NCBI GenBank assembly: GCA_030614785.1 | Contig: JAUWTJ010000041.1 | Coordinates: 1 to 36,032, forward strand | Length of the DNA stretch: 36,032 nt | Direction of reading: 5' to 3' | From: Alphaproteobacteria bacterium | Lineage (GTDB): Bacteria > Pseudomonadota > Alphaproteobacteria > M2410 | Shown here: positions 122 through 36,032 of the stretch, piece after piece | Layout of the letters: every line of letters begins with the position of its first letter | Numbering within the stretch: the first letter of the stretch is position 1 | Notes under the pieces: model-generated | Seen by the model: only the letters and a program-made list of their open reading frames with translations | The model's database searches: none | Told to the model about the DNA's origin: nothing | Program-made: the position numbers and the translations under genes

Positions 122-2470
122 CTAGGGCTGAACGGTAAACCCGCCAGGCAGAACATCATCGCCGCCGTCGGCATTCGTCACTCGCACGTCCCAGACCCGC
201 GCCCGTCTCGGCCCCTTGTAGGATACTGTGATCGTGGCCGTGATAGTCGTCGCATCGACCACGACAACGTTTGAGGCTACCGGTGATTTTCCCGAACCGT
301 TTTCCATACTCAGCGTTGCATCCGCGGCAAAGCCACCACCCCAAATCGTCACATCGACCGAGGTGGCCGGGCTGATAATGATACCTGGTTCTATCGAGCC
401 CACCAGCACGCCGACCGCCGGAGCCTCCACAGTCGTGCTGGTCTCGCCGGTATTGTCGGCGGTATCGATTTCGTCGCCCACCGTCGCTGCCACCGCCCGC
501 AGGGTATGCGCCCCGAGAATGGTGGTATCATCCGTGACCCAACTAAACCCGAGCGCGGTCGATGAGCCGGATGTCAAGGTCGTGCTCTGAGTACCGATGG
601 TCGTCCCTCCGGTCAGATCCGACAGCGTCACGTCGAAGGTTTCCGCGAAAGTGCCCTGGTTGGCCACATCGACCGAGACCGTTACTGTGCTGCCCTGGGC
701 TACCGGGTCCGGAGCTGTTACGGACACCACCGCAACATCATTGGTCGGGTCCATCACATTAGAGGTCGCAATGCCGGAATTGTCGGCCAAATCCACTTCG
801 CCGGTGACAACGCTGGCGCTCGCGGTCAGCGTATGTGTTCCAGCCAAAACGGGATCCCAGGCAAAGGACACGGTTGTCCCCGATCCTGCCGCCAGATTAC
901 TGACCAGCTGCGATGCAGACGTGCCGTCCGGAGCGTCACTCATGGTGACAGTGAAGCTCTCACTTTCTGTCCCCTGGTTTTCGACCGCGACACTCACCGT
1001 GTTGGATGAGCCCGTCAAAACTGGTGACGGGGCGCTGACAGAAGCCACTGCCACATCATGGCTCGGCGCAGGTGGTCCAAAAGTAACGACCGTGTCAGCC
1101 CGCGCCATCGGTTCCGGAATTCCATCGGGGTCATTCGGCCAGATCTGGCCACATCCATTGCCGTCGTGGAACACAGCGCCGCTCATACCGTCGGCACATT
1201 CGCCGGTTTCGATCAGGGCTTGCCGGACCAGAGCCGGGCTCGGCCACGCCCCATTGGTATCGTTGTAGGCCTGTGCAAAAAGAGCTGCCATTCCGGCAAC
1301 ATGTGGAGACGCCATAGACGTGCCGGACATTTTCGTGGCGCCGCCGCCCAGTTTGACCGATTCGACATTGACCCCCGGCGCCGTTACATCCACATCTGCG
1401 CCGCGATTTGAAAATTTGGCGAAGCTGTCGTCATTGTACTTGCCCGACCCGGGAAAGACCAGAGCACCGCCCGTGCCGCCGGGTTGCCCGTCAATGTCGG
1501 TCAGCGCCGACACTGTTATCACTTCGTCAAAGGACGCTGGTGCGGCGAATTTTGCGTCGCCACTGTCGTTGCCGGCGGCAACCACCAATGTCGTTCCACT
1601 ATTGACCAATGCGATCACCGCATCGTGGAAAAACTGAATATCCGGATCTGCAGGATTGGCTGGATCGGTTCCGTCCGTACACACCGAACAATACGCCCCA
1701 AGGCTCATATTGGCCACTTGCACTGCCTCTGCGCTCCCGGCAAGACTGGTTAAATAATCGACGCCCGCCGTGATGTCGCCAAACGAACCTGAGCCATTTG
1801 AATCAAGCACTTTGATAGCGACCAAAGTGGCCTCGGGTGCAATGCCCAAGACGCTGGTGTTAACGTCGTCTGTTGCTGCGATGGTGCCACTGACATGGGA
1901 GCCGTGTCCTTCGTCATCCTGACCGCCCGGGGCGCAGCCCCCAACGCAGTTGCGGCTGCTTGCCTGATCGACGCGGCCTGAAAGATCGGGATGATTAAAG
2001 TCAATGCCAGTATCGATTACTGCGACCCGCACGTTACCTGCAGTATTGGATGCAATAGCAGGCCCGTTGAAGCCGTAGATACGATCCACGCCGCTCGGAA
2101 TGATTTGAGCAGAAGCCACTGCGTAGCGATCATTGCTGATCGAGAGGATGTTTGGATTGCGGGCCAGAGCGTCAAGAACGCGAAGCTGGTTTGCTGCCTT
2201 CAGGTCAATCGCCATACCGGACACGCCGTGGCGATAGATATGTCGCACTGAAAAGCCGTGCGCTGCAGCAAGCCGTGCCGCGACCTGGTCCGGTTGGTGT
2301 TCGTTGGCCTGGAAGCGCACCAGATAGCGTCCTGGCACAATAGTTCCAGCCTTTTTAACCGCTTCAGCCGTCTGCGCATGCGCTACAGTAATAGGAATTG
2401 CAATCATGGCAAGTGCCGCGAAAAGACCGCCCATAATGGCAAATTTCGTTCCCATACGTCCCACAATCAT
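122..2470 (-). CDS. Secreted subtilisin-like serine protease (S8) with CARDB-type domains
   Basis: This is a secreted endopeptidase of 782 residues. I chose the ATG at 2470 because AAAGGAG stands 6 bases upstream; a TTG at 2497 would add nine residues. From that start there is a signal peptide (hydrophobic core, probable cut after AHA near residue 32), an inhibitor-I9-like propeptide (about 45-115), then the catalytic domain: Asp153 in AVIDTGID, His189 in GHGSHVSGT, oxyanion Asn301 in VVAAGND, Ser385 in SGTSMASPHVAG. Two repeats beginning DVAVASVSAP and DVAVVSVTAP are CARDB-like Ig modules, and the last ~90 residues resemble an IPT/TIG fold ending GGFTVQP. I see no sortase, PEP-CTERM or autotransporter signal. 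It is oriented like the mccA operon but over 400 bases downstream of it. Its TAG stop lies in the CTAG at the IS junction, so the true C-terminus may be altered. Confidence 0.9.
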   Translation of the reverse strand: MIVGRMGTKFAIMGGLFAALAMIAIPITVAHAQTAEAVKKAGTIVPGRYLVRFQANEHQPDQVAARLAAAHGFSVRHIYRHGVSGMAIDLKAANQLRVLDALARNPNILSISNDRYAVASAQIIPSGVDRIYGFNGPAIASNTAGNVRVAVIDTGIDFNHPDLSGRVDQASSRNCVGGCAPGGQDDEGHGSHVSGTIAATDDVNTSVLGIAPEATLVAIKVLDSNGSGSFGDITAGVDYLTSLAGSAEAVQVANMSLGAYCSVCTDGTDPANPADPDIQFFHDAVIALVNSGTTLVVAAGNDSGDAKFAAPASFDEVITVSALTDIDGQPGGTGGALVFPGSGKYNDDSFAKFSNRGADVDVTAPGVNVESVKLGGGATKMSGTSMASPHVAGMAALFAQAYNDTNGAWPSPALVRQALIETGECADGMSGAVFHDGNGCGQIWPNDPDGIPEPMARADTVVTFGPPAPSHDVAVASVSAPSPVLTGSSNTVSVAVENQGTESESFTVTMSDAPDGTSASQLVSNLAAGSGTTVSFAWDPVLAGTHTLTASASVVTGEVDLADNSGIATSNVMDPTNDVAVVSVTAPDPVAQGSTVTVSVDVANQGTFAETFDVTLSDLTGGTTIGTQSTTLTSGSSTALGFSWVTDDTTILGAHTLRAVAATVGDEIDTADNTGETSTTVEAPAVGVLVGSIEPGIIISPATSVDVTIWGGGFAADATLSMENGSGKSPVASNVVVVDATTITATITVSYKGPRRARVWDVRVTNADGGDDVLPGGFTVQP

Positions 2471-28190: not shown

Positions 28191-29291
28191 ATGAAAGATC
28201 TTCTTCTCCTCGGCGCAGGCAACATCGGTGAAATGATCACCGAGTTTTTGTCGACCAGCGGCGACTACACGGTAACCGTGGCTGACCTGTGCGAGGAAAA
28301 CCTCGCGCGCATGCCCAAGCACGACACCGTCACGACCATGACTTTGGACGTCTCCGACGAGGCAGCCCTGGCCGCAGTTATGGAAGGGAAATATGCTGTC
28401 CTCACGGCGCTGCCCTACTCAATCACACCGCTGATCGCCAAAGCCGCCGTTAAGGCGAAGGTCCATTATTTTGATCTGACCGAGGATGTCGCCTGCACAC
28501 GGCTTGTAAAGGAACTGGCGGAAGGTGCGCAGACGGCTCTTATTCCCCAGTGCGGTCTTGCTCCCGGCTTTATTTCGATCATCGCCAATGACATTGCCAA
28601 AGGGTTTGACTCATTGAAGACGCTTCACCTTCGTGTCGGCGCGCTGCCGCAATATCCATCCAATGCGCTCTCCTACAATCTGACCTGGAGCACCGACGGC
28701 GTTATCAACGAGTATTGTGAGCCTTGCGAGGCCGTCGTTGATGGCAAGCTGACCGAAGTGCCTGCACTGTCTGGTCTTGAGACCTTCGGGCTGGACGGGA
28801 TCACCTATGAGGCTTTCAACACATCGGGCGGGCTCGGCACGCTTTGCGAAACCTATGCCGGCAGGGTCGATAATCTCAACTATCGGACCATTCGTTACCC
28901 CGGCCATTGTGACGCGATGAAAATGCTGGTTCATGATCTTCGCCTCGGCGAGCGCCGTGATGTCTTCAAGGACGTACTGGAGCATGCCATCCCGGCGACC
29001 ATGCAGGATGTGGTTCTGGTTTTCGTGACCGCATCGGGCAAGAAAGACGGCCGTTTGATGCAGGAAAGCTATGCTAACAAGACCTATGCTCGCGAGATCA
29101 ATGGCAAGGTCTGGAGCGCTATTCAGATCACGACTGCTGCCGGGATCTGCGCCATGGTCGATCTTCTTGCTGATGGCAAACTGCCGCAAAAGGGATTTGT
29201 GCGCCAGGAAGACGTGAAGCTTTCTGATTTTCTGGCCAATCGCTTTGGCAAGAACTACGCTCAGATAAAAGTCGATTCCCGGGCTGCCTGA
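28191..29291 (+). CDS. Saccharopine dehydrogenase-family protein, candidate L-lysine 6-dehydrogenase
   Basis: A 366-residue NAD(P)-dependent oxidoreductase. The Rossmann motif LLLGAGNIGEMI lies at residues 4-15, VTVADLCEENL ends strand 2, and QCGLAPGFISIIANDI is the family's central motif. Size and motifs fit both the Lys9-type saccharopine dehydrogenases and bacterial L-lysine 6-dehydrogenase, which oxidises lysine to 2-aminoadipate 6-semialdehyde/piperideine-6-carboxylate. Two downstream genes follow at 15 and 28 bases; the last encodes the dehydrogenase that would take this product. No lysine-ketoglutarate reductase domain is visible nearby, which favours the lysine dehydrogenase reading. 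GGGAG precedes the ATG. Confidence 0.85.
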   Translation: MKDLLLLGAGNIGEMITEFLSTSGDYTVTVADLCEENLARMPKHDTVTTMTLDVSDEAALAAVMEGKYAVLTALPYSITPLIAKAAVKAKVHYFDLTEDVACTRLVKELAEGAQTALIPQCGLAPGFISIIANDIAKGFDSLKTLHLRVGALPQYPSNALSYNLTWSTDGVINEYCEPCEAVVDGKLTEVPALSGLETFGLDGITYEAFNTSGGLGTLCETYAGRVDNLNYRTIRYPGHCDAMKMLVHDLRLGERRDVFKDVLEHAIPATMQDVVLVFVTASGKKDGRLMQESYANKTYAREINGKVWSAIQITTAAGICAMVDLLADGKLPQKGFVRQEDVKLSDFLANRFGKNYAQIKVDSRAA

Positions 29292-29306
29292 AGCTGGAGT
29301 TCACAC

Positions 29307-30989
29307 ATGTCTGCCACACAAAAGGCCCCCAAAAAGACCGGTGGCGAGATCCTCGTCGAGGCGCTGAAGACCCATGGGACAACCCATGCCTTTTGCGTCC
29401 CCGGCGAGAGCTATCTTGCGGTTCTCGACGCGCTCTATGACGCGCGCTCGTCGATCGAGCTTATCACCTGTCGTCAGGAAGGCGGCGCGGCCAATATGGC
29501 CGAAGCACACGGCAAGTTGACGGGGCGGCCTGGCATTTGTTTTGTCACCCGCGGGCCCGGCGCAACCAATGCCTCGATCGGGGTTCATACGGCGTTCCAG
29601 GATTCCACGCCGATGATCCTCTTTATCGGTCAGGTGGCGCGCGACCAGGCCGACCGTGAAGCCTTTCAGGAGATCGACTTTCGCCGCATGTTTGGCCAGA
29701 TGGCAAAGTGGGTTGCTGAAATCCAGGACCCGGCGCGGATCCCCGAATATGTCTCCCGCGCCTTTCATACCGCCGTCAACGGCAGGCCCGGACCGGTCGT
29801 CCTGGCACTGCCGGAAGATATATTGCGCGAGATGGTGGAGAGCACCGGATCAAAACCATATCGCCGCGCTCTGTCCGGCCCGACGGGCTCTGACCTTGAA
29901 GAGATGGCCGACCGCCTCAACAAGGCGGAACGCCCGCTGGTCATTCTCGGCGGTGGCGGCTGGTCACAGGAGACGACGCAGAATATTGCAAAGTTCGTGC
30001 GCGACAACGGGCTGCCTGTCGGGGCCTCGTTCCGGTGCAAGGATCTTTTTGACAATCGCGACCCGCACTATTTCGGTGATGTCGGGATTGGCATCAATCC
30101 AAAACTGGCGGAGCGCGTCAGGCAAGCCGATGTCATCCTGGCCATTGGCCCCCGCCTTGGCGAAATGACAACAGGTGGCTATACGCTTTTCGAAGTCCCC
30201 GACACGAAACAGGATCTCATCCATGTTCACGCCGGCGCGGAGGAACTTGGACGGGTTTATAACGCCGACCTCAAGATCAATTCATCGATGGCCGGGTTTG
30301 TCGAGGCGGTGAAAGACCTTGAACTGGCACCGCAACATTCATGGGACGCCTGGCGCGAAGACGCGCGCAGCGACTTCGAAGCCTTCGTTGCACCGATTGA
30401 TGCACCGGGCGACGTCAATCTCTCACAGGTCTTTGCGCAAATGTCGAACCTGTTGCCACAGGACGCCATTGTCTGCAATGGCGCGGGCAACTATGCGGCC
30501 TGGCTGCACCGGTTCTATCAACACAAGGCATTCCGCACTCAGCTTGCACCAACCAGCGGAGCCATGGGATACGGCGTTCCGGCGGCCATCGGTGCCAAAG
30601 CCACGGAACGCTCGCGCACGGTCGTGGCGGTTTCGGGCGACGGCTGTTTCCTGATGACTGGCCAGGAACTGGCGACCGCGGTTCATCACAAGCTCGGCGT
30701 CCTCTTCATCGTCGTCAATAACGGCATTTACGGTACGATCCGGATGCATCAGGAACGCGACTATCCCGGCCGGGTGATCGGCACAGACCTCACCAATCCC
30801 GATTTTGTCGCCTATGCCGAGGCCTTTGGCGCCAGGGCGGCGCGGGTTGAGACCACCGCTGACTTTGCGCCCACACTCAAGGAAGCTCTTGCTCACATTG
30901 GTACTGGCAAGGGTCCGATGCTGATCGAAATCATGGCCAACCCGGACGCCATCTCACCTGGCAAGACCCTCCAGTCCCTGCGCGGCTAA
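29307..30989 (+). CDS. ThDP-dependent enzyme, acetolactate-synthase-like
   Basis: A 560-residue thiamine-diphosphate enzyme with three domains: the PYR domain with catalytic Glu58 (CRQEGGAANMAEAHG), a central domain with LVILGGGGWSQE, and the PP domain with the metal-ThDP motif GDGCFLMTG (GDG 444-446) closing at NN 471-472. It resembles acetolactate synthases and related decarboxylases/lyases, but no regulatory-subunit gene is adjacent and the operon is not for branched-chain synthesis. Position between a lysine dehydrogenase candidate and an aminoadipate-semialdehyde dehydrogenase suggests a 2-oxo acid such as 2-oxoadipate as substrate; this is inference. GGAG lies before the ATG. Confidence 0.9.
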   Translation: MSATQKAPKKTGGEILVEALKTHGTTHAFCVPGESYLAVLDALYDARSSIELITCRQEGGAANMAEAHGKLTGRPGICFVTRGPGATNASIGVHTAFQDSTPMILFIGQVARDQADREAFQEIDFRRMFGQMAKWVAEIQDPARIPEYVSRAFHTAVNGRPGPVVLALPEDILREMVESTGSKPYRRALSGPTGSDLEEMADRLNKAERPLVILGGGGWSQETTQNIAKFVRDNGLPVGASFRCKDLFDNRDPHYFGDVGIGINPKLAERVRQADVILAIGPRLGEMTTGGYTLFEVPDTKQDLIHVHAGAEELGRVYNADLKINSSMAGFVEAVKDLELAPQHSWDAWREDARSDFEAFVAPIDAPGDVNLSQVFAQMSNLLPQDAIVCNGAGNYAAWLHRFYQHKAFRTQLAPTSGAMGYGVPAAIGAKATERSRTVVAVSGDGCFLMTGQELATAVHHKLGVLFIVVNNGIYGTIRMHQERDYPGRVIGTDLTNPDFVAYAEAFGARAARVETTADFAPTLKEALAHIGTGKGPMLIEIMANPDAISPGKTLQSLRG

Positions 30990-31017
30990 ACCAACACCAA
31001 AGACACAGGACATACTC

Positions 31018-32520
31018 ATGACGTTTACTGATATTCTGAAATCTCTCGACCTTGACGAAGCCCACTTCCAGGGCGGCACGCTCGATGTGGCCTCGCCCAT
31101 CGACGGCAAGATCTTTGCAAACGTAAAGCTGGATGATGCAGCTTCCCTTGATCAAAAGATTTCGGATGCGACGGCGGCCTTCCAATCCTGGCGCACCCTG
31201 CCCGCACCTCGTCGCGGCGAGCTTGTTCGTCTTCTCGGCGAGGAACTGCGCGCCAACAAGGAAGCCCTCGGGGCGCTTGTGACCATGGATTGCGGCAAGA
31301 TCTATCAGGAAGGCCTCGGCGAGGTTCAGGAGATGATCGATATTTGCGACTATGCCGTCGGCCTGTCGCGCCAGCTCTTCGGCCTGATGATCGCCTCGGA
31401 ACGCCCTGGCCACCGCATGAGCGAGACCTGGCATCCGGCAGGTCCGGTCGGCATTATCTCCGCCTTCAATTTCCCGGTTGCGGTCTGGTCGTGGAATACG
31501 GCGCTGGCTCTGGTCTGCGGCGATCCTGTGATCTGGAAGCCATCGGAAAAAACGCCGGTAACGGCGCTGGCCTGTCAGGCGCTGCTTGAACGCGCCATCG
31601 CGCGGTTCGGCGATGACGCGCCAAAGGGTCTCTCAAGCGTTGTCATTGGCGGCGCAGACCTTGGTGAGCAACTGGTCAGTGACAAGCGCCTGCCGGTTAT
31701 TTCTGCAACAGGATCAACCGCCATGGGCCGCAAGGTCGGTCCGCGCGTTGCGGAACGCTTCGGCAAGTCCATTCTGGAACTGGGCGGCAACAACGCGATG
31801 ATCGTTGCGCCTTCAGCCGACCTCGACATGGCTGTGCGCGCCATTGTGTTCTCGGCGGTCGGCACCGCCGGGCAGCGCTGCACCTCACTGCGCCGCGTCA
31901 TTGTTCACGAAAGCCTGGTCGGCGATCTGCTGCCGAAACTTCAGGCGGCCTATAAAACCATTCCTGTCGGCGACCCGCTCAGCGAGGCCAATCTGGTCGG
32001 CCCGCTGATCGACAAGATGTCGTTCGACGCGATGCAAAAAAGCCTCGCGCAGGCGAAGGACGAAGGCGGCGAGATCACCGGCGGCATGCGTCTCGATGTC
32101 GATGGCGCGAACGATGCCTTTTATGTCAGACCCGCGATTGCGATTATGCCGGGCCAAAGCGACGTGGTGAAGACAGAGACCTTCGCGCCGATCGCCTACA
32201 TTATGACCTATACGGATCTTGATGACGCCATCGCCACCCAAAACGATGTGCCGCAGGGCCTGTCGTCGTGCATCTTTACCCGCGACCTGCTTGAGGCCGA
32301 GACGTTCCTCTCGGCAGCAGGCAGCGACTGCGGCATCGCCAACGTCAACATCGGCCCCTCGGGCGCTGAAATCGGCGGCGCCTTTGGCGGCGAAAAGGAA
32401 ACCGGCGGCGGGCGCGAAAGCGGGTCGGACGCCTGGCGCGGGTATATGCGGCGGCAGACCAATACGGTGAACTATTCCAAAGAGCTGCCGCTGGCGCAGG
32501 GGATCAAGTTTGAGGTTTGA
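31018..32520 (+). CDS. ALDH7-type aldehyde dehydrogenase, probable 2-aminoadipate semialdehyde dehydrogenase
   Basis: Oxidises 2-aminoadipate 6-semialdehyde (in equilibrium with piperideine-6-carboxylate) to 2-aminoadipate with NAD(P)+. The 500 residues follow the antiquitin/ALDH7 pattern: Asn151 in SAFNFPVAVWSWN, Glu254 in LELGGNNA, catalytic Cys288 in GTAGQRCTSLRR and the C-terminal stretch GPSGAEIGGAFGGEKETGGG that distinguishes ALDH7 from other aldehyde dehydrogenases. It is the third gene of the operon, 28 bases after the ThDP enzyme, with AGGA before its ATG. The stop lies within a TTTGAGG triple repeat. Confidence 0.92.
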   Translation: MTFTDILKSLDLDEAHFQGGTLDVASPIDGKIFANVKLDDAASLDQKISDATAAFQSWRTLPAPRRGELVRLLGEELRANKEALGALVTMDCGKIYQEGLGEVQEMIDICDYAVGLSRQLFGLMIASERPGHRMSETWHPAGPVGIISAFNFPVAVWSWNTALALVCGDPVIWKPSEKTPVTALACQALLERAIARFGDDAPKGLSSVVIGGADLGEQLVSDKRLPVISATGSTAMGRKVGPRVAERFGKSILELGGNNAMIVAPSADLDMAVRAIVFSAVGTAGQRCTSLRRVIVHESLVGDLLPKLQAAYKTIPVGDPLSEANLVGPLIDKMSFDAMQKSLAQAKDEGGEITGGMRLDVDGANDAFYVRPAIAIMPGQSDVVKTETFAPIAYIMTYTDLDDAIATQNDVPQGLSSCIFTRDLLEAETFLSAAGSDCGIANVNIGPSGAEIGGAFGGEKETGGGRESGSDAWRGYMRRQTNTVNYSKELPLAQGIKFEV

Positions 32521-32529
32521 GGTTTGAGG
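32509..32529 (+). repeat. Three tandem copies of TTTGAGG spanning the ALDH stop codon
   Basis: TTTGAGG occurs at 32509-32515, 32516-32522 and 32523-32529. The stop codon TGA is in the second copy. Because the first copy onward already gives the same last codons, gain or loss of one unit would not change the protein while two remain. It marks a small duplication at the edge of the AT-rich tail. Confidence 0.85.
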
Positions 32530-32932
32530 TATCAAATTCGATACAAAACTCTTGTCGACGGCTTTGTTGTTCAACACACAGTCTGCCTGAGAACCGTTGT
32601 AGATCGAGAATGAAGGGAGCAGGGGCATAGTACGTGCTTGTGCTCCAACGCGGCTTTCATCTGGATTGTGTTAGTGACCAACGATAAACTGGACGTTGGG
32701 TCTATTTGGAAAATCCGTAGATTATGACAGGGAGGGCCTGCTCGAGCTCGTTCTCCTATTCACCCATACAATTTAAAATTGCTTCCCAGTGTTACTATAA
32801 CACCACACAAGACATGATTACGAGGATACTCCCCCGAAATTATGAAAAATGCTTGCAGGGTTAAATTGTATTCTACATAGTTAACAAGCTGACCAAAATG
32901 GGGGTTTTGGAAAAAAGGGGGCTTGGGGAAAG
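32530..32932. other. AT-rich intergenic region at the start of the accessory tail
   Basis: About 400 bases with no convincing gene and visibly lower GC than the operon before it. It holds a small GTATC/GATAC dyad (32529-32544), the near-palindrome CAATTTAAAATTG (32769-32781), the dyad at 32789-32803 and a possible -35 TTGCAG (32853-32858) with a weak -10 before the small membrane protein gene. No clear terminator for the lysine operon was found. Confidence 0.5.
32789..32803. promoter_or_regulatory. Operator-like dyad GTGTTA-CTA-TAACAC
   Basis: Six-base perfect arms around three central bases, about 130 bases upstream of the membrane protein gene at 32933. Size and shape fit a helix-turn-helix dimer site; no regulator gene is nearby on this side, and chance is possible in AT-rich DNA. 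Confidence 0.3.
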
Positions 32933-33352
32933 ATGCTGAGAATAACGTGGAAATGGGTCCCGGCGTTGATAATTCCGGTAGCTTTCTACTATGTATTTGT
33001 CACGTTTCAAGACCCAGAGGCGGCGGCTGAACAAATGTCGTCAGTTGTTTTTTCATTTGGACTTTCCTCCGGTGAGTATCTAGCGGTCCGCATCGGAGAT
33101 TGTTTTGTACTGCTAGCCTTCATATTTCTTTTTTTGGAGATAATGCGGGCCGCTGTAAATGAGCAGTACACAAAGGTAAATAACATACTTTCAGGTTTGT
33201 TATGTCTGCTTTCCTTCGCTCTTTTCATTACCGAGAAGGGATTTGCCACTCCCACTTTTCTTGTGATTTTCCTATTCACGATTCTGGATACCGTCAATGG
33301 GTTGAATGTATGGTCAAAGCTCGGCGGTGACAGATCTGGCACGAAGAATTGA
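32933..33352 (+). CDS. Unknown small four-helix membrane protein
   Basis: A 139-residue protein with four predicted membrane helices (about 8-26, 52-72, 84-100, 107-125) and short polar loops; the C-terminus GGDRSGTKN is cytoplasmic by charge. GGGGAAAG stands just before the ATG, which supports expression. I recognise no family. Codon use is richer in A/T-ending codons than in the core genes. It is followed 145 bases later by another unknown membrane protein on the same strand; the two may form a unit. Confidence 0.65.
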   Translation: MLRITWKWVPALIIPVAFYYVFVTFQDPEAAAEQMSSVVFSFGLSSGEYLAVRIGDCFVLLAFIFLFLEIMRAAVNEQYTKVNNILSGLLCLLSFALFITEKGFATPTFLVIFLFTILDTVNGLNVWSKLGGDRSGTKN

Positions 33353-33497
33353 TACTTATACGACAGCTGCTGTTTTGGGCGAGGCATATGATGTTTGTAA
33401 TCTGTAAAAGGGATTTGAGTGAGTCCTGTTAAAAACAAGGCGGGGAAAGTTTCGCTGTCCCTTTGGCAGCCTATATCTACCATAATGAGGTCATTCG

Positions 33498-34052
33498 ATG
33501 AAATTTGAAAAAATAGGAACTGCATTGTTGGGCTATGTCTACTTGTGGCTTGGGATGTTCATAATGGCAATGATTACTGCACTGTCCGCCAACGGATTGT
33601 ATGACGTTCCTTTGTGGCAAGTCGCCAACGTCCAACTCGGGGGATTTCTGGGCCTTATTTTTCTCCTCGAGGCCCTTCTGGGTGTAGGTTTGGTGACGGC
33701 GCTGTTCACCGGAGAATGGAAACGGGCGTTGATCCTACCTTTAACAATGATTGGCTATGGGTTCTTGTGTTATGCTTCTCTTTTGGCTTTCGAGATATAT
33801 GGGTTACTTGGTGGGATTGAGTTCAAAACAGAATCCTTTGTAGTGCAAGATATGTACGGGTTCCTCGCTGCGATTATCGAACCTGTGTATACTTTTACAC
33901 TCGGTGAAGTGTCGACAGAAGGTGTGGATCGGTGGGTGAGAATCATAAGTATATTTCTCATGCTGATTACGAGTGTTCCAAAAGTCGTTACCTGGCTTAG
34001 CCAAAAACGAAAGACTACTGCCGAGGCCGGTGATGGCCTTCAACTAGCATAG
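33498..34052 (+). CDS. Unknown four-helix membrane protein
   Basis: A 184-residue protein with helices at about 8-30, 45-68, 75-100 and 146-165. Between the third and fourth is a loop of ~45 residues (GGIEFKTESFVVQDMYG onward) that would face the periplasm or be partly re-entrant. The tail WLSQKRKTTAEAGDGLQLA is cytoplasmic by charge. GAGG lies 7 bases before the ATG. No family recognised. The gene is AT-richer than the operon upstream and lies between another small membrane protein gene and a convergent DUF4239 gene. Confidence 0.7.
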   Translation: MKFEKIGTALLGYVYLWLGMFIMAMITALSANGLYDVPLWQVANVQLGGFLGLIFLLEALLGVGLVTALFTGEWKRALILPLTMIGYGFLCYASLLAFEIYGLLGGIEFKTESFVVQDMYGFLAAIIEPVYTFTLGEVSTEGVDRWVRIISIFLMLITSVPKVVTWLSQKRKTTAEAGDGLQLA

Positions 34053-34184
34053 ATAGAACATTCGAAGCTGGGTTTTCCGTAAAAAAGCCAAATGTAATGC
34101 GTGGCCAAGTGAAATCGAGATTGGCTGGCGCAGAATTTTATTTTGTAAACAACCCATACGAGATATGTAATCGAGCTCACCAAA

Positions 34185-34367
34185 ATGGTGAGGCTCGGGC
34201 CAATTCCCGATTATGCAAACATCTATACATTGAATGACAAAGAATTCTGCTTACATGTGCCGTGTAGAAGAAAACTTTTGGAGAATGCATTGACTGCTTT
34301 AGAAAACGTATTGGCCACTTTGATGGCGCTCGGACTTGTTTTGGGCACAGTTCTGGTTCTGTTGTAA
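34185..34367 (+). CDS. Doubtful 60-residue single-pass membrane peptide
   Basis: The frame reads MVRLGPIPDYANIYTLNDKE and ends in a hydrophobic helix (NVLATLMALGLVLGTVLVLL). No ribosome-binding site is visible before the ATG. A membrane helix and an apparent terminator 60-100 bases downstream are the only support. It may equally be chance in a non-coding gap. Confidence 0.3.
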   Translation: MVRLGPIPDYANIYTLNDKEFCLHVPCRRKLLENALTALENVLATLMALGLVLGTVLVLL

Positions 34368-34429
34368 CTTACCCCCCTGTCGCACGGATAGATGTTACAG
34401 CTGAATAGATGCCGTCTGTAAACGTTCGA

Positions 34430-34463
34430 CCAAGAATAACCCCACGCGGGGACTTTGGTTTTT
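34430..34463 (+). terminator. Intrinsic terminator candidate between convergent membrane-protein genes
   Basis: CCCC-ACGC-GGGG (34440-34451) forms the inner stem and CCAA (34430-34433) pairs with TTGG (34455-34458) as the outer stem across a small internal loop, followed directly by TTTTT (34459-34463). It would end plus-strand transcripts from the membrane-protein genes. On the minus strand the stem is followed by TTATTCTTGG, so it may work weakly both ways. Confidence 0.45.
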
Positions 34464-34527
34464 CCGGCAGAAGTCTCCAACCAGTGCCAGCCCTATGTTC
34501 CGTTTGATTGCCGGTCTGCTTAAAGAC

Positions 34528-35502
34528 CTAAATTTCCTTTGAAATTTCCACCTTCAGGCGTTCTATGCGCGCCAATATTTGGTTTCTGCTTTCTCGAAAC
34601 GGTTTTCTATCGACCTGCCAATACCCACTAAAGTGAGAGCTCATATCAACCATCATCAAGAACAGGAACGACAAGGCAAACCCCATGCAGGCCACAAAAA
34701 ATGGAGAAACAACTTCTCCATTTACTACTGGAAGATATAGAGGCCCAATTACAAACAAGGACAGTACGACTAACATCAACACCATAAAGGGAGATGGCTT
34801 GGACATCATGTAAGAAATACGATGAGATCGCAGCGCCATCAAATCATCCATTCGGGAGATTAGTTGATCAAATGCTACTCGGTCATTTTCATCGAGTATT
34901 TTGAGTTGGCCAAGACGCTCCGACAGTTCGTTCACAATATTCATATTTTCCAACATATGTCCTGATACACGGAATCTTTCCGACAGAACATTGTCCGCGT
35001 AACGCATTAGAAGTCCATGAATATAAAGAACTCGTTGAGAATTCGTCTGCCCTCCATCATCATGAAGATAGGGGAGAATTTGGGACATGGATTCCAATCG
35101 TAGAGCTTCGTCCCTAAGGGTAATATTTATACTATCGTGATCCTGCATACTCTTAAACACCAGAAATGCTACCAATAGAGCGTAGATATTGGACACCATC
35201 CCGCTAAAGATCTCGACCATAAGATCCAACTGTGAACCTTCAGCTGCGAATGCACTGCGCACTACTTCCATCTCCGGCAGCTTATGAATAGAATCATAAG
35301 CAAAAAAGAATATGAGGCCGACGGCTGTTGGTACAACAAACCGTAACGCAATGGTTCTTACAATAGGTTGATACAATAAAAGCAGTAGGCTGAACGTAAA
35401 TGTTGCAAACCCAATCCATCGAGGCACATCTGGCTCGAGGGAAAATAGAACAACAGAACCGATACCTCCCAATATGGCCAAGTGGACACCAGATACTTTC
35501 AT
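34528..35502 (-). CDS. DUF4239 (bestrophin-like) membrane protein
   Basis: A 324-residue inner-membrane protein. Hydrophobic segments lie at about 8-24, 30-45 and 55-72, then a further segment near 105-120 (IYALLVAFLVF). The long soluble helical stretch (about 125-230: NITLRDEALRLESMSQILPY, DRVAFDQLISRMDDLMALRS) is followed by two C-terminal helices (about 240-290) and VDMSSHFSGYWQVDRKPFRE. The arrangement R-DEA helix, 'R..R' before the last helix pair and 'D...G...V...P' after it is what I know from DUF4239, a family distantly related to bestrophin channels. I start it at 35502, where GGAG lies 6 bases upstream; an ATG at 35514 adds four residues. Convergent with the membrane genes to its left; function unknown. 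Confidence 0.7.
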   Translation of the reverse strand: MKVSGVHLAILGGIGSVVLFSLEPDVPRWIGFATFTFSLLLLLYQPIVRTIALRFVVPTAVGLIFFFAYDSIHKLPEMEVVRSAFAAEGSQLDLMVEIFSGMVSNIYALLVAFLVFKSMQDHDSINITLRDEALRLESMSQILPYLHDDGGQTNSQRVLYIHGLLMRYADNVLSERFRVSGHMLENMNIVNELSERLGQLKILDENDRVAFDQLISRMDDLMALRSHRISYMMSKPSPFMVLMLVVLSLFVIGPLYLPVVNGEVVSPFFVACMGFALSFLFLMMVDMSSHFSGYWQVDRKPFRESRNQILARIERLKVEISKEI

Positions 35503-35911
35503 CGATATCTCCATTCAGATTTCATCTCATGGCATGACTTGCGGCAAGACTAGTTGCCGAAAGTTGGTGTGGGGTTGGACAACGATGACCGAACTTCCAC
35601 CTGCAGTGGATGATCTCAAATACCAAGCGACCTCAAGAATCCACGTTTATGGACACTCATTGAGTAATACCCAGTACCTGCGCCGAGAATGATCTGATAG
35701 ATCCCCGCATGTCACTTACACCCCCGTGTTTTTCATGCACGACTATCTAAAACTGAACACTCTCCCCCGTCAACCATAAACCCGTTATAGTATATAAAGG
35801 TATTGTTTATCCCTACCTGTCGGCGCCTTCCAACTATGTCGCCGATTCTGAGATGTCGATGCTCACCAATTTGTACTCTCGCACGACCCACTCAAAATCT
35901 TGTCGGACTAG
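35503..35911. other. Intergenic DNA between the DUF4239 gene and the right IS
   Basis: About 400 bases. On the plus strand TTATAGTATATAAA (around 35785-35798) could hold a -10 element, but no gene follows it before the IS. Frames here are short, lack ribosome-binding sites and resemble nothing I know. CTAG at 35908-35911 is the IS junction. The region may contain fragments broken by the IS insertion. Confidence 0.45.
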
Positions 35912-35929
35912 GGTCAGGACTCATTAAAT
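35912..35929 (+). repeat. Terminal inverted repeat of the right IS copy
   Basis: Reads GGTCAGGACTCATTAAAT on the plus strand. It overlaps the transposase stop codon (35924-35926), as is common in compact IS5-family elements. Confidence 0.75.
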
Positions 35930-36032
35930 CCACCATATGACGATGGCGGCGATGCAGATTGCCGAGAAGAAGGTGTGAGAGCATCGGTCGTATCGGGTTG
36001 ATATGCGCCGCCAGTCCTTGAGGCGGCCGAAC
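35924..36032 (-). CDS. IS5-family transposase, C-terminus only (runs off right edge)
   Basis: The last 35 codons read FGRLKDWRRISTRYDR, then a cysteine, and end AAIVIWWI before TAA. The GRLKDWRR-TRYDR text, with the E-to-R/K helix of the DDE catalytic domain, followed by a short hydrophobic end, is the characteristic terminus of IS5-family IS427-group transposases. The catalytic residues lie outside the window. The stop codon sits inside the terminal repeat. Confidence 0.88.
   Translation of the reverse strand, partial: FGRLKDWRRISTRYDRCSHTFFSAICIAAIVIWWI

Follow-up and report, generated by a model that had tools for sequence, protein, structure and literature searches.

A low-GC block of three membrane protein genes, including one for a Bestrophin-like PF14023 protein, at the end of an alphaproteobacterial contig: probable part of a small acquired island

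Bestrophins (PF01062), such as KpBest and Escherichia coli YneE, are a channel family with which one of the gene products considered here can be compared; in an excerpt of one report, the neck positions of KpBest are I62, I66 and F70 (PMC8496536). For the family PF14023 (DUF4239, Bestrophin-like), our literature search, limited to titles and abstract openings, found no report on function, and its matches to 'PF14023' were malaria or Plasmodium titles, presumably gene numbers. With respect to envelope sugars, an excerpt on Caulobacter mentions homologues of rgtD, rgtF and rgtE, the reference genes of which encode galacturonic acid (GalA) transferases of lipid A biosynthesis (PMC7663294). Here we describe an AT-rich block at one end of a contig of 36,032 bases from an alphaproteobacterium. 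The whole contig, C145 of the source genome G000 (3.86 Mb in 148 contigs), is hereafter called the window. We interpret the block, with a probability of about 0.6, as the portion in view of a small, loosely packed accessory island that was gained by horizontal transfer and runs into the contig end. It carries three unrelated membrane protein genes, two of which have possible channel and envelope roles, respectively.

The features of the block are listed in Table 1; its genes are named p139, p184 and p328. The open reading frame (ORF) map confirmed the arrangement given in the first-pass annotation, i.e. plus-strand genes that face the DUF4239 gene. Together, the three supported genes (p139, p184 and p328) cover 0.58 of the block.

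Table 1. Features of the AT-rich block and its right border
Feature	Coordinates	Strand	Description
AT-rich accessory block	32521..35909		GC content 0.445; left bound, stop codon of the ALDH gene; right bound, IS end
p139	32933..33352	+	Four-transmembrane protein that diverges strongly from the rest of its unnamed alphaproteobacterial family
p184	33498..34052	+	Near-orphan membrane protein that has four hydrophobic segments
60-residue ORF	34185..34367	+	One hydrophobic segment; gene status doubtful
Terminator-like hairpin	34438..34454	-	Between the converging genes
p328	34528..35514	-	PF14023 (DUF4239, Bestrophin-like) protein, extended at the N terminus by two transmembrane segments
End of multicopy IS	35910..36032		Inserted beside CTA; truncated where the contig stops

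The guanine-plus-cytosine (GC) content of the block is to be compared with 0.576 over positions 1-32520, where no stretch of 3390 bp falls below 0.544. A two-segment maximum-likelihood scan of the last 10 kb placed the best change point within an aldehyde dehydrogenase (ALDH) gene, at 32502 and only 18 bases short of its end. Codon usage changes as well. When synonymous codons were scored with the remaining window genes as the training set, the five ORFs scored in the block, two of which are nested, obtained -0.17 to -0.22, and all of them are lower than the 23 reference genes picked from the ORF lists (+0.03 to +0.25, leave-one-out). In other frames the block ORFs mostly had similar or higher scores, and their reverse complements always had higher ones. 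The score thus marks a foreign composition or codon habit and is in itself no support for the ORFs. The composition shift that the first-pass annotation had noticed after the ALDH gene was therefore confirmed by the GC and codon-usage profiles that it had proposed, both of which set the block apart from the rest of the window. Acquisition of the block would account for this break.

The ALDH is an L-piperidine-6-carboxylate dehydrogenase (NF050084, 814 bits for a cut-off of 730). At this site, the source genome was compared with its relatives G001 to G003. In G001, an ABC-transporter operon (opp-type, by eye) comes next after the orthologues of the saccharopine-dehydrogenase-like and ALDH genes, with a GC content of 0.53-0.56 over the 5 kb that follow. 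The contig of G002 ends inside the ALDH gene, and G003 has no ALDH match at E <= 1e-100. The orthologue of the ABC-transporter operon in the source genome is found on contig C98 with different upstream neighbours (77% for the first gene). Thus, synteny is broken after the ALDH gene regardless of the block, and the end of the ALDH operon is a synteny break. The block is missing after the ALDH gene of G001, but local synteny differs, and none of these genomes offered a clean empty site. Neither p184 nor p328 has a match in the 95 other genomes searched as relatives, which include the only three others available from the order. The proposal that the block was acquired therefore stands on its composition and codon usage, on the absence of p184 and p328 from the 95 relatives and on the different neighbour in G001, although this last point is tempered by the fact that synteny is broken there anyway.

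The DUF4239 assignment of p328 is secure, with a score of 77.3 bits against PF14023 (gathering cut-off 32) over residues 75-306. Its core is composed of two transmembrane (TM) segments, a large soluble loop and two further TM segments, a plan that it shares with PF14023. Two additional hydrophobic segments (residues 7-25 and 34-52) precede this four-TM core in the hydropathy profile, in contrast with the other PF14023 loci, 14 of 15 of which have a readable ORF, each with two to four hydrophobic segments. In the alignment of p328 with 12 members (A9), identities are only 11-19%, E136, Y172 and R232 are invariant, R229 is kept, and His replaces the Pro of the D-x-P-F motif. Comparison of p328 alone with five PF14023 members using hhalign gave P 2.2e-6. 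Judging by eye, its true start may be Met5, which is preceded by GGAG and has a better ribosome-binding context than Met1.

Close relatives of p328 were not found. Among 398 Pseudomonadota genomes, none but the source genome has a relative at E <= 0.001, and 11 pattern matches in the genome_contigs collection could not be confirmed. There is no match to p328 in plasmid records, phage records or viral contigs, and its PF14023 relatives are unmatched in viral contigs too. PF14023 occurs in 12 of 190 genomes of the class, the source genome included, and is thus a sporadic gene in the class.

A kinship of PF14023, and of p328, with true bestrophins is possible, but the similarity is weak. PF01062 does not match p328 at E <= 1, and the PF14023 profile has no match in the PDB. 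Nevertheless, hhalign of 13 PF14023 proteins against six bestrophins (one of them YneE of E. coli, the others plasmid-borne) aligned 186 columns at P 1.3e-4 with a probability of 53%, and the helices come in the same order. For comparison, PF14023 against p139- and p184-type alignments gave P 0.29 and 0.30, respectively, and bestrophins against the p139 family P 0.49. If YneE and KpBest are numbered alike, as the mapping assumes, N109, L113 and F117 of p328 fall on the neck positions I62, I66 and F70 of KpBest in the 13-versus-6 profile alignment only. At these positions, V/A/T, V/I/L and F prevail in the rest of the PF14023 alignment, as read by eye. This placement of a putative neck in p328 is hypothetical. 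No PF01062 protein was found in 142 genomes of the class, but control genomes gave none either, so this is no proof of absence. Of the ion conductance initially proposed for the block proteins, a plausible role as an ion channel candidate is left for p328, and none for the others.

The 139-residue protein had initially been regarded as having no recognizable family, and it has no family match in Pfam, PHROG, NCBIfam or PADLOC. It belongs, however, to an unnamed alphaproteobacterial family of four-TM proteins, of which, on sequence comparison (best E 5.1e-14), it is a very divergent member. A sequence search found relatives in 10 of 96 genomes, the source genome counted, and genome_contigs yielded 16 loci, 15 in records titled as Alphaproteobacteria or subgroups thereof and one in a record labelled only Pseudomonadota. 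p139 shares no more than 38% identity with any of its relatives (residues 7-126) and lies on a very long branch; 16 columns of the family alignment (A7) are invariant across all 17 rows. No credible Pfam match was obtained for 12 members of the family, nor an NCBIfam match for two.

Outside the window gene, the family is present at 27 loci, 25 of them distinct once two pairs of contigs that are the same by length are merged. Within the examined flanks, 20 of these 25 have a glycosyltransferase family 2 (GT2) gene, a PMT-type gene or both. The GT2 gene, found at 19 loci, is always upstream and on the same strand, and PMT-type genes occur at 16; L017, L022, L025, L084 and L085 have neither. In the family tree, members without GT2 neighbours are scattered, with five changes, a number equal to that in shuffles. 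The source genome has a member on contig C69 (L019:5890-6384), and loci L082-L097 also carry the family. Neighbours of the C69 member are GT2 (PF00535), PMT, PAP2 and PMT_2 genes. The best NCBIfam equivalogs are ArnC-type for this GT2 (83 bits, cut-off 529) and ArnT-type for the PMT (71 bits, cut-off 567). These scores are far below the cut-offs. Our guess would be that the GT2 and PMT genes associated with the family are of the rgtE/rgtF type. No literature on a GT2-linked four-TM protein was found.

An AlphaFold2 model of p139 built with 17 sequences (predicted local distance difference test, pLDDT, 83.4) contains five helices, of which two are short and three long, and a strand hairpin. Foldseek found no match to it at E <= 0.001. 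The best VIA-align match (Z 6.6, 82 residues, root-mean-square deviation 3.1) may reflect just a common helical arrangement. Profile matches of the family in the PDB to the zinc transporter SLC30A1 and the acetylcholine receptor (E 0.004-0.1) were judged to be due to chance.

Scans of the p184 protein gave no family in PHROG, NCBIfam or PADLOC, and in Pfam a single match, below threshold. The protein is also without a match in plasmid records, phage records or viral contigs. Of the 398 Pseudomonadota genomes, seven gave E <= 0.01, the source genome counted. The sole clear relative is a protein of 182 residues in G393 (E 9.1e-12, 32% identity), itself unmatched in viral contigs, the gene of which lies between a gene for a translation-GTPase-like protein, presumably TypA, and unrelated genes. 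The five other matches (E 0.0009-0.004) are weak and partial, and we regarded them as chance matches; the one target that was scanned is a DUF808 protein.

At about position 35910 begins the end of an insertion sequence (IS), as the first-pass annotation had stated. From the end of its transposase we take it to be IS5-like. This IS end has 11 further matches in the source genome, among them a short one of 22 bases on C69 and a weak one (79%) on C32. We inspected 10 of them, one a short remnant, leaving out the C32 match; with the window end, this makes 11 IS ends. The remnant, at L073:4471 on C69, consists of about 22 bases after the CTA context and is apparently an old or deleted copy. On C68, a low-GC stretch (L071:96-1000, about 0.44) lies beside the same IS and contains an ORF of 157 residues (249-722, minus strand) with a signal-peptide-like start.

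In the interpretation that we favour, the island, which is itself ordinary accessory DNA, would lie after the last gene of the operon ending with the ALDH gene, its far side being hidden behind the unresolved IS copy. The p139 and p184 genes could be on a common transcript, and the convergent p328 would be transcribed separately. For p328, the likeliest mechanism would be that of bestrophins, with an oligomer whose pore is formed by the second core TM helix and through which ions pass down their gradient. Most likely, p139 would derive from a small membrane protein found elsewhere in company with a GT2 of the ArnC type, an enzyme from which p139 is parted here. A GT2 of this type loads a sugar on a polyprenyl carrier for modification of the envelope.

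Several points weigh against this interpretation. The composition break alone could also denote a native, low-GC region under weak selection. No integrase or tRNA gene and no convincing attachment repeat that would mark a route of entry were seen in the window. For the putative channel, the bestrophin comparison weakens to P 0.048 with five PF14023 sequences and to P 0.015 with p328 alone, in an alignment limited to the C-terminal half. The first putative neck position of p328 is Asn, versus Ile in KpBest, and its single-sequence model (pLDDT 45) is unusable. As for the envelope role, no GT2 or PMT genes, the usual neighbours in the family, were seen beside the p139 gene of the window, so a function in common with the family is conjectural.

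That the block was never acquired, and is instead a native, gene-poor and decaying stretch of low GC under weak selection, is an explanation that we consider unlikely. The low share of supported coding sequence fits such decay, and p139 does have a distant relative on C69 of the same genome. However, the two proteins are only 25-28% identical, the branch of p139 amounts to 6.96 changes per column, and the tree marks its placement as unsure. Furthermore, p184 and p328 are unmatched in the searched relatives, and the break coincides both with a gene end and with the synteny change. It is much less probable still that the adjoining IS imported the block within a composite transposon. An IS end does form the right border, but positions 32530-35911 are unmatched elsewhere in the genome and hence no IS copy is present at the left border. 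Moreover, CTA precedes all 11 inspected IS ends, window end included, which fits simple insertion. The 1-kb flanks of eight of the 10 other ends have normal GC contents of 0.517-0.572, with 0.496 and 0.439 for the remaining two. As the copies are mostly in DNA of normal GC content, the IS inserts widely and its adjacency to the block is probably incidental. The IS is thus probably not the vehicle of the block. A plasmid origin was also rejected, since p139, p184, p328 and the 60-residue ORF are all unmatched among 72,556 plasmid records.

We also consider it very improbable that the three membrane protein genes form one functional cassette, e.g. a membrane-stress or phage-defence module where p139 and p184 would govern an ion leak through p328. 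The genes are adjacent and alike in composition, all encode membrane proteins, and p139 and p184 are co-oriented and 145 bp apart, but p328 is on the opposite strand. The first-pass annotation suggested an acquired cassette, here taken to mean genes that travel as a whole, and a search for the block at different sites in other genomes. In that search no two of the three families were found together: there was no such locus among the 25 distinct p139-family loci, in the 19 kb around the p184 relative of G393, which contain no p139-like or PF14023-like gene, or at the 15 other PF14023 loci, with short flanks that reach no further than about 1.5 kb. Neighbouring PF14023 genes were sought with four phmmer queries at E <= 1e-4, which very divergent members could escape. 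Phage defence found no support either. None of the four ORFs matches PADLOC-DB 2.0.0 at E <= 1 or a phage record, viral contigs have no match to the three proteins, and family scans of the four ORFs revealed no sensor, enzyme or nucleic-acid-binding domain. A defence system was set aside as unsupported on these grounds, and no literature joining bestrophins with anti-phage defence was found. The boldest version of the idea, a mobile ion-leak module acting on envelope stress or phage infection and made up of p139, p184 and p328, the last as a bestrophin-type channel with six TM segments, appears to us highly speculative and very unlikely to be true.

Of the four membrane protein genes initially proposed, three stand: the proteins of 139, 184 and 328 residues all show TM segments, and for each there are relatives or a family. 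No support was obtained for the 60-residue ORF. Its family matches are sub-threshold only (Pfam E 0.016, PHROG E 0.1), and it has no match of note in the loci compared, its whole-genome search not having been made. The same stretch could equally represent a 25-residue ORF starting at TTG 34292, or nothing. The proposed terminator does have a candidate site between the converging genes, but it is weak, and the number of such sites in the scan (4 versus 2.9 in shuffles, standard deviation 1.7) is at chance level. A 22-nt repeat pair at 32880 and 34167 (82%) is comparable to other repeat pairs of the region. No RNA genes were found in the window. Upstream of the block, a gene for a thiamine pyrophosphate (TPP)-dependent enzyme (PRK08199, 29307-30989) lies between the saccharopine-dehydrogenase-like (by eye) and ALDH genes, within 28191-32520. 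As the outer two genes are only about 50-100 bases apart in G001 and G002, the TPP gene looks inserted into the lysine-catabolic operon.

If the weak link between PF14023 and bestrophins is true, it would extend the bestrophin channel family in bacteria. The p139 family may be a component, so far undescribed, of a pathway for envelope-sugar modification, a side result that is more general than the island itself.

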